From assembly GCA_015521775.1 (NCBI GenBank), contig WANN01000008.1, positions 1 to 64,000 on the forward strand: a DNA stretch of 64,000 bases, in the 5' to 3' direction. Every line of letters starts with the position of its first letter. The stretch's first letter is position 1. This document shows positions 22,359 to 26,717 of this stretch, in pieces. Source of the stretch: Thermoproteaceae archaeon (GTDB taxonomy: Archaea > Thermoproteota > Thermoprotei > Thermoproteales > Thermoproteaceae). Position numbers and translations under genes: made by a program. The notes under the pieces were generated by a model, which saw only the letters and a program-made list of their open reading frames with translations, was not told the DNA's origin and did no database searches.

Positions 22359-22769
22359 ATGTTGTATAGGATAGTCGAGGTGGGCGGCGGCTGCGAGGGA
22401 TGCATAGCCACAGGCAACGGCTACTACTCGCTGGTCCCGATCGGGCTAGAGGCCGCAGCAGTGGCTGCCGTCTCCGCCGTGGCGCTGGGCATGGCAGCCT
22501 GGGCGCTTTCCCGTGACTGGGGCCTCCCCCTGCCGGTTATCGTGGCCTCCAGGATCAAGAGAGCGCGCGTCGACGACTCCATCAAGGCCTCCATAATATC
22601 GTTGCTCGAGGAGAGGGGCCCCATGACCATCTACGAAATGGCCAGGGAACTGGGGGTGCAATATGGGGCGGTTAGGTGGCACGTGTACGTGCTGGAGCGC
22701 GAGGGGGTGGTCAAAACCGAGAAAAGGAGGGGGAGGACCTACGTCGAATTGGTGTTTAACAAGTTTTAA
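22359..22769 (+). CDS. Membrane-anchored winged-helix regulator
   Basis: 136 residues. An outward-facing N-terminal part with a CEGC pair is followed by one transmembrane helix (about residues 27-50) and a cytoplasmic winged helix (SIISLLEERGPMTIYEMARELGVQYGAVRWHVYVLEREGVVKTEKRRGRTYVEL) of ArsR/MarR type. The topology suggests a one-component regulator sensing something at the surface, perhaps redox or metal through CEGC; that is inference. ATG 22359 follows a TATA-like gcttttattt (22331-22340). It is the first gene of the surface-protein sorting locus. Confidence 0.7.
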   Translation: MLYRIVEVGGGCEGCIATGNGYYSLVPIGLEAAAVAAVSAVALGMAAWALSRDWGLPLPVIVASRIKRARVDDSIKASIISLLEERGPMTIYEMARELGVQYGAVRWHVYVLEREGVVKTEKRRGRTYVELVFNKF

Positions 22770-22885
22770 AATCCATGTTGTGTGGCACGGCCTAGATGCC
22801 GGGCCGTGTTGGTGGGGCTGCCGTGATGTTGGGAACGTCGCCCATGTCGCACGCGGTCGACATGTAGGCGCGCATTGTCGGGCCC

Positions 22886-24124
22886 ATGACGCGCCTATTG
22901 GCGATCGCCATAATGGCGGCCATATGCGCCGTAAACGTGGCCGGCGCGGCGCAGCTGTTCGTGTCGAGCGACGTGGAGGACGACGTGTTCGCCGTGTTGC
23001 TCTCGGAGAGACTTGGCACGGAGATGCACGTGCTGGTGCTGGAGGACCCGCGCTCCAGGTTCATGTTGGGCAACTACTGGTTTCTGGCCCGCTACGACGT
23101 TGTTTATCTGCTCGACCTCAACTCGGCCTGGTCGTATGGGGGCGGCCTCACCGAGGCCGAGTGGGGAACCATCATGGACTATGTCAGGGATGGCGGCGTC
23201 GCTGTTGTCGGGCTGAACACCGTGGTGGGGAGCCGCGACGTGGACGCGTTTAGGAGGGCGGCCAGGGTGGACGTTAGGCACATCACGATAGAGGGGGCCG
23301 TGCCCCTGATATACGGCGACGCCGAGATACAGCTCAACGGAACCTACGGGCTCCTCGAGGTGTACCCGGCCGTAAGATACACCATAATAGCGAGGCATTG
23401 GTCCGGGGCGCCCGCCATAGTCGTCATGGAGCTCGGCCGAGGGGCGCTGGTCGTCGTGGGGTTTAACGCGGTCAAGGAGGCAGTGGAGAACGGGAAGCTC
23501 GACCTCCTCTCGCCCATCACGGATTCCGTGTACATGGCCCTGCGCATAAGGGAGGGCCCAGGGAGTCCCCTGAGGCCTGTGCTTGCCGCCGTCCTCGGCT
23601 CCCTGTCGCCGCTGGAAATAGCCGTGGTCGCATTCTTCGCCATAATAGGCGCGTCGCTGGTCCTGGCACGCCTTGGGCTACTCCCCTTCATTTTCACCCT
23701 CGGCGTGGTAAAGCTGTTCTCGCCCATAATATGCAGGTCGCTGGACAGTAAGGGGCCCTACGCCGAGATCATAGATCTTCTGCCCACGCGGCTGAACACC
23801 TTCAGGGCTCTCGTGGGGAGGGCGTGGCGTTGGTACCTGTCCGCGCTAACCGTTTCGGGCCACGCCTTCCTAGTCTGGGACGGGGAGTACTTCGTCATGT
23901 CGAGAGACCCAAATAGGCTGGGCGAGCTTGGGGGGAGATATGCGGACGCACTCGGCATACTGTCCGAGCGCAAGGCCATATACCTGGCCCACATGGCAGC
24001 CCTGCTAGGCGTCAGCTACGACATGGCCCTGCGCATAGCCAAGGACCTGGCGAGGCTCAACGTGGTGACCCTACGCAAACACCCCGTCGACCTGATCGTG
24101 TACTATGTAGCCAACCGTAGATGA
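22886..24124 (+). CDS. Membrane protein with DUF4350/GATase1-like ectodomain and C-terminal winged helix
   Basis: A 412-residue protein in three parts. A signal helix (residues 1-20) is followed by a Rossmann-like ectodomain (to ~230; AAQLFVSSDVEDDVF, YDVVYLLDLNSAW, GGVAVVGLN) resembling GATase1-like DUF4350 domains. Then come a pair of transmembrane helices (~232-275) and a cytoplasmic C-terminal domain whose last 80 residues look like a winged helix (KAIYLAHMAALLGVSYDMALRIAKDLARLNVVTLRKHP). Its stop overlaps the glycosyltransferase start by 4 bp, so they are co-translated. The role is unknown; sensing envelope state is one possibility. Confidence 0.65.
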   Translation: MTRLLAIAIMAAICAVNVAGAAQLFVSSDVEDDVFAVLLSERLGTEMHVLVLEDPRSRFMLGNYWFLARYDVVYLLDLNSAWSYGGGLTEAEWGTIMDYVRDGGVAVVGLNTVVGSRDVDAFRRAARVDVRHITIEGAVPLIYGDAEIQLNGTYGLLEVYPAVRYTIIARHWSGAPAIVVMELGRGALVVVGFNAVKEAVENGKLDLLSPITDSVYMALRIREGPGSPLRPVLAAVLGSLSPLEIAVVAFFAIIGASLVLARLGLLPFIFTLGVVKLFSPIICRSLDSKGPYAEIIDLLPTRLNTFRALVGRAWRWYLSALTVSGHAFLVWDGEYFVMSRDPNRLGELGGRYADALGILSERKAIYLAHMAALLGVSYDMALRIAKDLARLNVVTLRKHPVDLIVYYVANRR

Positions 24125-25410
24125 GGGTCGTCCTGCACCTAGCCCTCTCCCTCCTCGTATTCGCCGCCCATATATTCTTCATGGCCATGGCCATAAGCCT
24201 CCTCTTCTCGTCCCTCGGCCTCGAAGTAATGTTCGTCCAGGTGCTGAGCGCCATAGTGACGCTGTTCATAGTTATGGGGGGGACAACGCACATAGCGTAC
24301 TTCACGCTGTTCCTGTACCATGTGGAGGAGAGGAGGGTGATTGACAGGCCCCCCAACTTCGAGGTCCCATACACGGTCATTATACCCGCGTACAACGCCT
24401 CCTCCACCATATGCCAGGTGCTGGACGTGGTGACCAGGAACATAGGCAAGAACTACGTAGTCGTGGTCAACGACGCGAGCACGGACTTGACGCCGCTGCT
24501 GGTGGACAAGTTCAGGGATAGGAATGTGGACCACATAATGCTGCCCTTCCACCTGGGCAAGGCGCAGGCCATGATGTTCGCGTCCAGGGAGGCCCTGACC
24601 CCCGTCATGGTGCTGATAGACGCGGACACCCTGCCCGTGACGGGGCTGGACAGGCTGGTCAGGTGGTTCGTCCACGACGACGTGGTGCTGGTGACCGGCA
24701 ACGTGCTTCCCATGAACAAGCACCACAACCTGTGGACCCGCATGCAGTACATAGAGTACGTCCACTCCAACAGCATCGGGCGCCAGATACAGGGCAGGCT
24801 CAAGTGGCTGCTCATCGCGCCTGGGGCCCTACTCGCCTTCAGGACCAGGTTCCTCAAGCCCATAGTAATGCTCGGCGACACGCTTGCGGAGGACTTCGAC
24901 ATAACGTTGATGTCCTGGAAGGCCGGCTACCGCGTAGTGTTCGACTCCCACGCGTTGGCGTACACCCGCGTCCCCGTCAGGTTGAGGGACATATATAGGC
25001 AGAGGATCAGGTGGTACTACGGGGGACTACAGGTAATGGCGAAGCACAGGGACATGGTCACCTTCAGGAGGGGGGAACGCATTGGCCCGGCACTGCTCGC
25101 CAACCTGCTGCTCGTCGAGTACGTAGTGCCGACCGTATCAGCTCTAAGCATACTCATGTTCCCCCTACTCGTGCTCATCCAGGCGCTTCTGGGCGTGCCC
25201 ATACTGCCGGGCGGGCCCACCTTCCCCCTCATAGCGCTCCTCTACTTCCTACTCTACCCTATACCTGGCATGGCCATGTCGAGCGCCATCGTTGGTAGGA
25301 GGATGTTGCCGTACATAGCCCTATACTACTACGTGTACCTCATAGTGCTTGCGTTCGCCAAGCTGGACGCCACCGTGAGGTACCTAAGGAAGGAGCGCGT
25401 GAGGTGGTGA
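24121..25410 (+). CDS. Processive family 2 glycosyltransferase, membrane-bound
   Basis: GT2 enzyme of the cellulose/chitin/hyaluronan-synthase class, 429 residues. Two N-terminal helices precede the catalytic domain: VIIPAYNAS (nucleotide-sugar site), VLIDADT (DxD metal site), LAEDFDITLMSWKAGY (acceptor ED motif) and RQRIRWYYGG (QxxRW-type motif of processive enzymes), followed by three to four helices that would form a translocation pore. It starts within the stop of the previous gene. Together with the archaeosortase just downstream it recalls bacterial exosortase loci, where surface polysaccharide genes accompany the transpeptidase. The sugar is unknown. Confidence 0.88.
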   Translation: MRVVLHLALSLLVFAAHIFFMAMAISLLFSSLGLEVMFVQVLSAIVTLFIVMGGTTHIAYFTLFLYHVEERRVIDRPPNFEVPYTVIIPAYNASSTICQVLDVVTRNIGKNYVVVVNDASTDLTPLLVDKFRDRNVDHIMLPFHLGKAQAMMFASREALTPVMVLIDADTLPVTGLDRLVRWFVHDDVVLVTGNVLPMNKHHNLWTRMQYIEYVHSNSIGRQIQGRLKWLLIAPGALLAFRTRFLKPIVMLGDTLAEDFDITLMSWKAGYRVVFDSHALAYTRVPVRLRDIYRQRIRWYYGGLQVMAKHRDMVTFRRGERIGPALLANLLLVEYVVPTVSALSILMFPLLVLIQALLGVPILPGGPTFPLIALLYFLLYPIPGMAMSSAIVGRRMLPYIALYYYVYLIVLAFAKLDATVRYLRKERVRW

Positions 25411-25420
25411 GGCGAAGTTC

Positions 25421-25436
25421 AACAATATTTATATAT
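25421..25436 (+). promoter_or_regulatory. TATA region upstream of the archaeosortase
   Basis: aacaatatttatatat contains a strong TATA-like box; the expected transcript start is near 25459, exactly at a short open frame rather than at the archaeosortase ATG (25532). The 10-mer aacaatattt recurs identically at 26041-26050 in front of the candidate substrate gene, which suggests shared control. Confidence 0.55.
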
Positions 25437-25458
25437 TACAGTAGTACGTCACTGCGTC

Positions 25459-25530
25459 ATGGCGAGGCCCACACGCCTTGCGGCCGCTGGGAGGAGTAAA
25501 CGCGCCTATCCGCAGCTGGACGTGGGGTGA
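25459..25530 (+). CDS. Candidate 23-codon leader peptide upstream of the archaeosortase
   Basis: The ATG at 25459 is about 26 nt from the TATA-like box, the usual leaderless position, but its frame runs for only 23 codons of basic, Ala-rich residues and stops with TGA at 25528-25530, one base before the archaeosortase ATG. Termination-reinitiation could couple the two. The alternative is that it is a chance frame and the archaeosortase begins at TTG 25478. Confidence 0.3.
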   Translation: MARPTRLAAAGRSKRAYPQLDVG

Positions 25531-25531
25531 G

Positions 25532-26002
25532 ATGGGGGGCGCAGTCGTGCTGCGCGCGGCCCTAGCCCTGGGCGTGTTCGCCCTCATGTACCTTTACCTG
25601 GTGGACACGGTGGTGTACTGGGAGACGAGGCTCCTCTCGGCGGTCCTCTGGGCCCTGGGGCTCGACCACGTGGCGGGCAGCTACTACGTGCTCCTACTAG
25701 GTATCCCGAAGACCTTCATAGTGTCGGCAGAGTGCAGCGGCATAGTATCCATGTCCGTGTTGTCAGCGCTAATAGCGGCGCTGTGGGGATCCGGAGCGTT
25801 GAGGCGTATGGCCATGGGGCTGGCGGCGCTCTTCGCGATAAACATGGCGCGCATAATTGGGGCGGTGCTCGGCTACCTGGCCTACGGCGATGCGGGCCTG
25901 TGGTCGGTCCACTACGTTATGGGGCCCCTGGCGCTCTACACGGCCGTGCTCCTGATAGTCACCGCACACATAAGGGCCCAGATAAGGACCGGGATTGCGT
26001 GA
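25532..26002 (+). CDS. Archaeosortase/exosortase family transpeptidase
   Basis: Integral-membrane Cys protease-transpeptidase that cuts and re-attaches C-terminally anchored surface proteins. The catalytic triad of the family is visible: Cys68 in SAECSGIVSM, Arg107 in NMARIIG and His127 in WSVHYVMG, each next to or within one of about five transmembrane helices. From ATG 25532 it has 156 residues, a compact form; a TTG at 25478 would add 18 residues. The next gene encodes a secreted protein with a matching C-terminal signal, and the previous gene a glycosyltransferase. I cannot place it in a named archaeosortase subfamily. Confidence 0.85.
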   Translation: MGGAVVLRAALALGVFALMYLYLVDTVVYWETRLLSAVLWALGLDHVAGSYYVLLLGIPKTFIVSAECSGIVSMSVLSALIAALWGSGALRRMAMGLAALFAINMARIIGAVLGYLAYGDAGLWSVHYVMGPLALYTAVLLIVTAHIRAQIRTGIA

Positions 26003-26040
26003 TGTGTGGAGTCACTTCTACCTTAAACGCCGAAAACTTT

Positions 26041-26069
26041 AACAATATTTTTTAATTTGTTTTGGAGGG
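26041..26069 (+). promoter_or_regulatory. Promoter and ribosome-binding site of the sorting-substrate gene
   Basis: aacaatatttttt (26041-26053) is a TATA-like run identical over its first 10 bases to that upstream of the archaeosortase. A strong Shine-Dalgarno-like ggaggg (26064-26069) lies 6 nt before ATG 26076. A purine-rich site of this strength is uncommon in this window and suggests high expression or an internal position in a longer transcript. Confidence 0.5.
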
Positions 26070-26075
26070 AGTGGC

Positions 26076-26717
26076 ATGGCACTGATAATAATCGCGCTGC
26101 TGATGCTGCCCCTGCTGGTCTCCGCGTCGAGCACGATAGCGCTGACAGTAGGCGACAAGGACAACGAGGTTGACGGGGAACTGACCATAGTGTGCGACGG
26201 CGGGTGCACGTTGACGTGTGGGGGCTCGCCCATAGGCGTGTCCCCCGGCGACACGGTCAAGGTCGATATAGACTCTGAGAACGAGGGACTATACGTAAGC
26301 AAGGCGGGCAGCGCCATCACGATCAACGGCTATGTCGAGGAGGTCGAGAAGAACGGCGCCACTGTGTGCAGTGGGGACACGGTGCAGCTTAGCATGGCCT
26401 TCTCGTCGCTGTCCGGCAACCTCGAACTCGAGAGCGAGTCCGACGATGACAACGGTAGGCCTGTGCACCTGGTCGTCGATGGTAACGTGGTGATCAACGA
26501 TCCAGACTCGCTGGACGAGGTACAGGTAAATGTCGATCTGACGTGCACCTTCACCGTTACCCTGGGGGCCAGCAACCTGCAGTTCAACGGGTGTGGGGAC
26601 GCCATAGTCAACGGCAGCTACGTGCCCGAGGCGCCGCTCGTGGCGGTGCCGGCAATAGCGGCCTTAATCGCGCTGTTCGCAGTGGCGTACAGGAACAGGC
26701 TCGCCGCCCGCCGTTAG
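26076..26717 (+). CDS. Secreted surface protein with PEP-CTERM-like sorting signal; candidate archaeosortase substrate
   Basis: 213 residues: signal peptide (1-17, MALIIIALLMLPLLVSA), a beta-rich acidic ectodomain with six Cys (likely three disulfides) and an N-glycosylation sequon (NGS) near the tail, then a C-terminal tripartite tail. That tail has VPEAP (residues 183-187), a hydrophobic helix (LVAVPAIAALIALFAVAY) and a basic end (RNRLAARR). Short motif, helix and Arg cluster are the plan of PEP-CTERM and PGF-CTERM substrates, and VPEAP is close to bacterial VPEP. It begins 73 bp after the archaeosortase. No fold is recognisable; Ig-like is possible. The 3' end overlaps amrS by 4 bp. Confidence 0.75.
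   Translation: MALIIIALLMLPLLVSASSTIALTVGDKDNEVDGELTIVCDGGCTLTCGGSPIGVSPGDTVKVDIDSENEGLYVSKAGSAITINGYVEEVEKNGATVCSGDTVQLSMAFSSLSGNLELESESDDDNGRPVHLVVDGNVVINDPDSLDEVQVNVDLTCTFTVTLGASNLQFNGCGDAIVNGSYVPEAPLVAVPAIAALIALFAVAYRNRLAARR

Follow-up and report, generated by a model that had tools for sequence, protein, structure and literature searches.

The window analyzed here, a 64,000-nucleotide stretch of DNA from a hot-spring Thermoproteaceae archaeon, contains between positions 22359 and 26717 five plus-strand open reading frames (ORFs), where the first-pass annotation had placed five same-strand genes in 4.4 kb. All five were confirmed, and the sister genome G044 carries them in the same order, on a contig that breaks within the GT2 gene. 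The genes and the C-terminal tail of the last one are as follows.

22359 to 22769, plus strand: membrane-anchored winged-helix gene (136 aa; transmembrane segment followed by a winged helix)
22886 to 24124, plus strand: gene for an ectodomain-transmembrane-winged-helix protein, here called ECTO (412 aa)
24121 to 25410, plus strand: GT2 gene (429 aa; membrane GT2 glycosyltransferase, processive type)
25532 to 26002, plus strand: archaeosortase-family gene (156 aa; most likely start, the ATG at 25532)
26076 to 26717, plus strand: candidate substrate gene (213 aa; signal peptide, beta-rich domain with six cysteines, sorting tail)
26622 to 26714, plus strand: C-terminal sorting tail VPEAPLVAVPAIAALIALFAVAYRNRLAARR (short motif, transmembrane segment, basic end)

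The first two genes are separated by 116 nt, the second and third overlap by 4 nt, and gaps of 121 nt and 73 nt lie on either side of the archaeosortase gene. The 121-nt gap between GT2 and archaeosortase contains a TATA-like element, tttatatatta. Scanning the locus for promoters and terminators gave matches at chance level only, with bacterial models that are not suited to archaea. Just after the TATA-like box we also observed a 23-codon ORF (25459 to 25530) that ends 1 nt 5' of the archaeosortase ATG; its sister counterpart has 19 codons, and it is possibly a leader. Reading of the translations places a radical-SAM-like gene and a phosphate-transport-like set on the minus strand of the upstream flank, and another radical-SAM-like gene in the downstream flank; these flanking genes are unrelated to the five-gene unit. 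By comparing the window with its sister, we obtained dN/dS values for three of the genes: GT2 (C-terminus only), 0.114; archaeosortase, 0.138; substrate, 0.195. The five window genes are real and constrained.

The archaeosortase and its candidate substrate

The 156-aa protein matches TIGR04178, the exosortase/archaeosortase superfamily HMM, at 32.3 bits (cut-off, 23), and it is the only match to this model in the host genome, which is 81% complete. At least four transmembrane segments are predicted. Cys, Arg, and His are the residues required in characterized relatives; here they correspond to C68 (25733 to 25735), R107 (25850 to 25852), and H127 (25910 to 25912), and all three are invariant in an alignment of 17 archaeosortase sequences. 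The first-pass reading of an archaeosortase with an intact triad therefore holds at the level of the superfamily HMM. None of the models for the named archaeosortases, ArtA to ArtH, reached its cut-off (the best, ArtF, gave 26.3 of 150 bits), and the scores against XrtX (22 of 170 bits) and XrtG (21.2 of 102.75 bits) also fell below theirs; the ArtA model TIGR04125 had no match in the window genome. Identity with ArtA, ArtF, or XrtG is ruled out by the HMM cut-offs. A PDB sequence search with the archaeosortase returned no relatives, only dihydroorotase noise, and in a tree of the family, whose sequences are too divergent, 2 of the 11 inner branches were well supported. Elsewhere in Thermoproteota, archaeosortases of about 700 aa that are fused to a C-terminal soluble domain form a separate class (L028, L029, L031, and L037).

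The candidate substrate ends in VPEAPL, a transmembrane helix, and the basic cluster RNRLAARR, which satisfies the CTERM layout of short motif, helix, and basic end. A homologue was detected in Desulfurococcus mucosus (G138; phmmer, 2.7e-11) with a tail that runs from VPEVTP to RRSRA, and the exact VPEAPL recurs in the Pyrodictium-like genome G247. Between the window and D. mucosus proteins, the tails share 47% identity versus 25% for the mature domains, whereas for a simple anchor one would expect the opposite pattern. A profile of the tail found one protein each in the window genome (G000), G044, G247, and G138. No second tail protein was found in these four genomes with this profile (the window genome being 81% complete), and a set of 24 archaeosortase-negative relatives gave no match at E<0.03. 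The tail model, like the ECTO model used below, was built from positive loci, and only the negative results of the two are independent. One tail match per positive genome fits the single dedicated substrate proposed in the first-pass annotation.

Could the tail be an ordinary C-terminal membrane anchor, with the archaeosortase acting on something else? C-terminal transmembrane anchors are common in archaea, and in G007 and G062, which both have an archaeosortase and a GT2, the tail profile found no VPE-tailed protein, so the VPE tail is not universal. An ordinary anchor nevertheless seems improbable to us, given that the tail is better conserved than the domain it carries, that the VPE motif lies near an archaeosortase in three genera, and that the profile found no other tail protein in the genome and none in the archaeosortase-negative set.

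The beta domain of the substrate is also present without the VPE tail in other Thermoproteota; the G062 homologue, for instance, has no C-terminal transmembrane tail and lies about 100 kb from the archaeosortase locus. The AF2 model of the substrate is all-beta (of five models, the top one reached pLDDT 82 and the others 47 to 69), a fold search with it against the PDB gave nothing better than E 0.02 and probability 0.12, and Pfam and NCBIfam returned sub-threshold noise only. The protein had at first been described as small, secreted, and disulfide-rich with a sorting tail. The signal peptide and the tail stand, while the disulfide-rich character is limited to the window genus, the mature domain of the D. 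mucosus homologue having no cysteines. We also observed proteins with an IPGFP-type tail that are convergent with a short archaeosortase (L068, 6205 to 7323; L069, 8799 to 9905); a comparable protein in L051 looks transglutaminase-like.

Winged-helix proteins and the pairing of GT2 with archaeosortase

As first annotated, the 136-aa protein is a membrane-anchored winged-helix protein: it scores above gathering with both HTH_24 (25.1 bits) and HTH_5 (26.2 bits), hydropathy places its transmembrane segment at residues 25 to 43, and the winged helix spans residues 73 to 128. It shares 124 of 135 residues with its G044 counterpart, in which the CEGC motif is kept. This motif (22392 to 22403) lies in the short N-terminus and may serve in redox or metal sensing.

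ECTO consists of a signal peptide, an alpha/beta ectodomain, a transmembrane region, and a C-terminal winged-helix region. The ectodomain had been called DUF4350-like; Pfam gave no DUF4350 match on ECTO, and this assignment was dropped. The low-confidence model of the ectodomain (pLDDT 62) found its best fold matches in GH42 and related enzymes (E 7e-5, TM score about 0.3), which presumably fit a GATase-like domain and give a weak hint that the ectodomain may take part in carbohydrate sensing. The C-terminal winged helix, also part of the first description, had no significant HMM match in the window protein and is supported through homologues, that of D. mucosus matching HTH_20 at 1.5e-11. ECTO homologues adjoin the archaeosortase in G062, G247, and D. 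mucosus; phmmer links the window protein to G062 (3.3e-18) and G247 to D. mucosus (2e-39), and the two sets are joined via G062. Although the ECTO profile matched in 265 of 398 genomes, nearly always only the winged-helix part was hit. Full-length proteins occurred only in G062 (two), G138, G247, G000, and G044, all of them archaeosortase-bearing, with at most four candidates scored per genome across the 398.

The window GT2 matches Glyco_trans_2_3 (PF13632, 3.2e-18), has six predicted transmembrane segments, and carries the motifs DAD, TLAEDFD, and QRIRW, which bears out the processive GT2 of the first reading. It does not reach the cut-offs of PgaC (TIGR03937; 101 bits, cut-off 422) or of the XrtG-associated glycosyltransferase (TIGR03111; 64.8 bits, cut-off 363.95), so that the position of the latter is taken here by a GT2 of different kinship. 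In order to survey the spread of the unit, a profile built from four archaeosortases was run against 398 Thermoproteota genomes, of which 76 matched at E<=0.1, and the neighborhoods of most short archaeosortases were read. This gave 23 short loci, including the window, its sister, and G353; G223, whose locus holds a GT2, and G176 were excluded, having no clear short archaeosortase. In 15 of the 23 loci, a GT2 in the same orientation lies directly next to the archaeosortase, and the two ORFs often overlap (window, G044, G007, G247, G138, G062, G177, G054, G074, G388, G095, G377, G370, G053, and G152). Of the remaining eight loci, three have an archaeosortase that is truncated or reaches a contig end (G256, G241, and G353). 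The GT2 starts 830 bp off in G096, a convergent tail-bearing protein is present in G261 and G198, and neither an adjacent GT2 nor a tail-bearing protein was seen in G068 and G082. Because the ten genomes sampled have only 2 to 11 PF13641 matches each (G247 has 2), we infer that such adjacency would arise by chance at about one or two percent. The GT2s of the examined loci fall into two deep clades, and the glycan therefore need not be the same across loci.

The strength of this pairing, which extends to lineages whose GT2 gene carries an ectodomain and a tail, together with some archaeosortase-GT2 loci that have no obvious substrate, would also suit a different role, in which the archaeosortase homologue, instead of being a peptidase, would form the membrane part of glycan export or polymer synthesis with the GT2, and the substrate would be a structural partner. 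The invariance of Cys/Arg/His in all 17 members makes this very improbable.

In genomes of family f22, the archaeosortase overlaps a GT2 of 740 to 860 aa with extra transmembrane segments and an ectodomain (L053, 6310 to 8523; L057, 8711 to 11296; L059, 1441 to 3943, with the GT2 split into two ORFs; L063, 8500 to 10962; L065, 5867 to 8374). In L053, L057, L059, and L065 these extended GT2s end in an IPEN motif, a transmembrane segment, and a basic tail. From its sequence, such a synthase resembles a sorting substrate in its own right, as though a fusion had joined the synthase to the sorted protein.

Distribution of the unit

Among 45 Thermoproteales genomes, three pass the TIGR04178 cut-off: the window genome, its sister G044, and G007, in which the GT2 overlaps the archaeosortase. 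G042 was considered as a second Thermoproteaceae archaeosortase and rejected, the match being weak, partial, and antisense to a larger ORF. The unit, which the first-pass annotation had set in Thermoproteales, is thus sporadic there, occurring in two species of one genus and, as a GT2-archaeosortase pair, in a single further genome. It recurs patchily in Desulfurococcus and Pyrodictiaceae and is not characteristic of Thermoproteales. Both the neighborhood and the tail are kept beyond the genus, in D. mucosus and in the Pyrodictium-like G247.

The D. mucosus locus was found from the archaeosortase alone, independently of the window neighborhood. It encodes, head to tail on one strand, the substrate homologue, ECTO, GT2, and archaeosortase; next comes a membrane protein with a PTPS_related match, for which a search for XrtG-locus membrane partners gave no NCBIfam match at 1e-6. 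Among the 40 genomes of the family, that of D. mucosus alone has an archaeosortase. According to the D. mucosus genome paper (PMC3111991), a mucous polymer envelops the cells of this species and is lacking in D. mobilis; a later paper gave the ANI between the two as 99.88%. We hypothesize that the unit is linked to this mucous coat.

G247 has the order ECTO-GT2-archaeosortase, and 150 bp downstream lies a gene whose product matches CanX, a cannula protein (PDB 9h8b, 4.6e-68). Its tail protein, secreted and 380 aa long, is encoded 1.4 kb upstream of ECTO and comprises, in order, an SNase domain (8.9e-12), a beta-domain stretch, and VPEAPLPALLALPVAALLLVLALHIYSQLKRSHSG; with the tail removed, it still matches part of the window-substrate beta domain at 2.6e-9. 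CanX/CanA-like cannula genes were observed directly downstream of this ECTO-GT2-archaeosortase operon (L017, 7205 to 7744 and 9932 to 10336). In G062 the order is ECTO-archaeosortase-GT2-ECTO, and other secreted fiber-like proteins and a signal-peptidase-like gene lie near the operon. One CTERM substrate with an archaeosortase and a glycosyltransferase was found in the window, G044, and D. mucosus, and in G247 with the 1.4-kb gap, so that the independent loci with a complete unit are few: the window genus, D. mucosus, and, with its gap, G247.

Proposed mechanism and relation to known systems

According to the above-described analysis, we favor the reading that the locus is a dedicated surface-protein sorting unit, with one enzyme and one substrate, and that sorting is coupled to the glycan product of the GT2. 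The first-pass proposal of a dedicated set of archaeosortase, GT2, single substrate, and membrane winged-helix proteins is well supported by its conservation beyond the genus. The signal peptide would export the 213-aa protein, and the VPEAPL-transmembrane-basic tail would hold it in the membrane. The Cys/Arg/His site of the archaeosortase would then cut at or near the VPE motif, and the enzyme would transfer the C-terminus so created to an acceptor in the membrane. We propose this half of the mechanism because of the superfamily membership and the precedent of ArtA, which combines C-terminal cleavage with lipid attachment and requires Cys-173 (PMC7157517); cleavage of the substrate by the archaeosortase is very probable. 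For this same step the GT2 would supply a glycan, in the form of a glycolipid or of a polymer outside the cell; the glycan may be part of the acceptor or a matrix decorated by the sorted protein. Judging from the gene pairing, the GT2 probably works in the same pathway as the archaeosortase.

A covalent link between the substrate and the GT2-derived glycan is a tentative and somewhat doubtful proposal, whose chief competitor is attachment to a plain archaeal lipid. The archaeosortase would in that case attach the substrate to an ordinary lipid, as ArtA does, and the exopolysaccharide of the GT2 would be unrelated or merely co-regulated, with no link between glycan and protein. ArtA is modeled with archaetidylethanolamine (PMC7157517), and the bacterial exosortase EpsH is dispensable for methanolan EPS synthesis (PMC1569441). 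However, the unit has no phospholipid gene, and the adjacency of GT2 in 15 of 23 short loci spans very different lineages, although co-regulation alone could still yield adjacency; we consider lipid attachment with an unconnected GT2 rather unlikely. In the favored glycan-coupled sorting unit, the two membrane-tethered winged-helix proteins would most likely set expression from the cell surface, and we lean toward such a regulatory role. The envelope sensing and the linkage to a polysaccharide or lipid that the first-pass annotation had suggested would both fit this picture as possibilities. A bolder version, distinctly unlikely at present, is that the single substrate is joined to the GT2 glycan or glycolipid as a protein-tipped polymer, and that the patchy unit helps decide the mucous coat in D. 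mucosus versus D. mobilis.

The first-pass annotation had likened the locus to exosortase/PEP-CTERM loci. The general resemblance is loose: EpsH-type systems also place a sorting enzyme near polysaccharide genes and use a Pro-Glu motif, a transmembrane segment, and a basic end, but they belong to Gram-negative hosts with an outer membrane and have a median of 8 substrates per genome (PMC1569441), whereas the window unit, in an archaeon, has a single GT2 and one tail match in an 81%-complete genome. The single substrate thus does not fit PEP-CTERM and fits the composition of the XrtG system, which in L. plantarum comprises one Firmicu-CTERM protein, XrtG, and two XrtG-associated glycosyltransferases (PMC12854382). 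ArtA/PGF-CTERM of Haloferax volcanii shares the archaeosortase superfamily, the tripartite C-terminal tail, and the Cys/Arg/His site; unlike the window unit, it has diverse substrates that include the S-layer protein and is linked to the lipid genes pssA and pssD (PMC7157517). The window unit instead has one substrate and a GT2. The thaumarchaeosortase system likewise has a V-P-E-type archaeal tail, and our substrate profile weakly picks up VVPEFG tails of proteins in genomes of family f16. It belongs to a different archaeosortase subfamily, and its tail, named PEFG, carries PEFG rather than PEAP.

Therefore, the best reading by analogy is that the unit is the crenarchaeal counterpart of Firmicutes XrtG/Firmicu-CTERM, rather than of the multi-substrate PEP-CTERM loci. 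Both combine one exosortase-family protein, one CTERM-tailed substrate, and one or more glycosyltransferases per locus, and 16 of the 17 archaeal archaeosortase relatives match the XrtG profile weakly. However, with 21 of 102.75 bits for XrtG and 64.8 of 363.95 bits for TIGR03111, the archaeal unit stays well short of both cut-offs, and it has a VPEAP tail, an unrelated substrate, and added membrane winged-helix proteins. Because the archaeosortase and the GT2 fail these cut-offs, the unit is not a member of the XrtG system; it would work like one if this reading is right.

In a full-text literature search, in which subscription journals were thinly covered, no title or abstract described a crenarchaeal unit of such make-up. 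The unit suggests a crenarchaeal counterpart of the XrtG arrangement of Firmicutes. One of its hosts, D. mucosus, is a type strain in culture whose mucous coat has been published, and the relative D. mobilis, at 99.88% ANI, was reported without such a coat. With one enzyme, one substrate, and one GT2, any attachment of the sorted protein to the GT2 product would become a mass-spectrometry question about a single protein.
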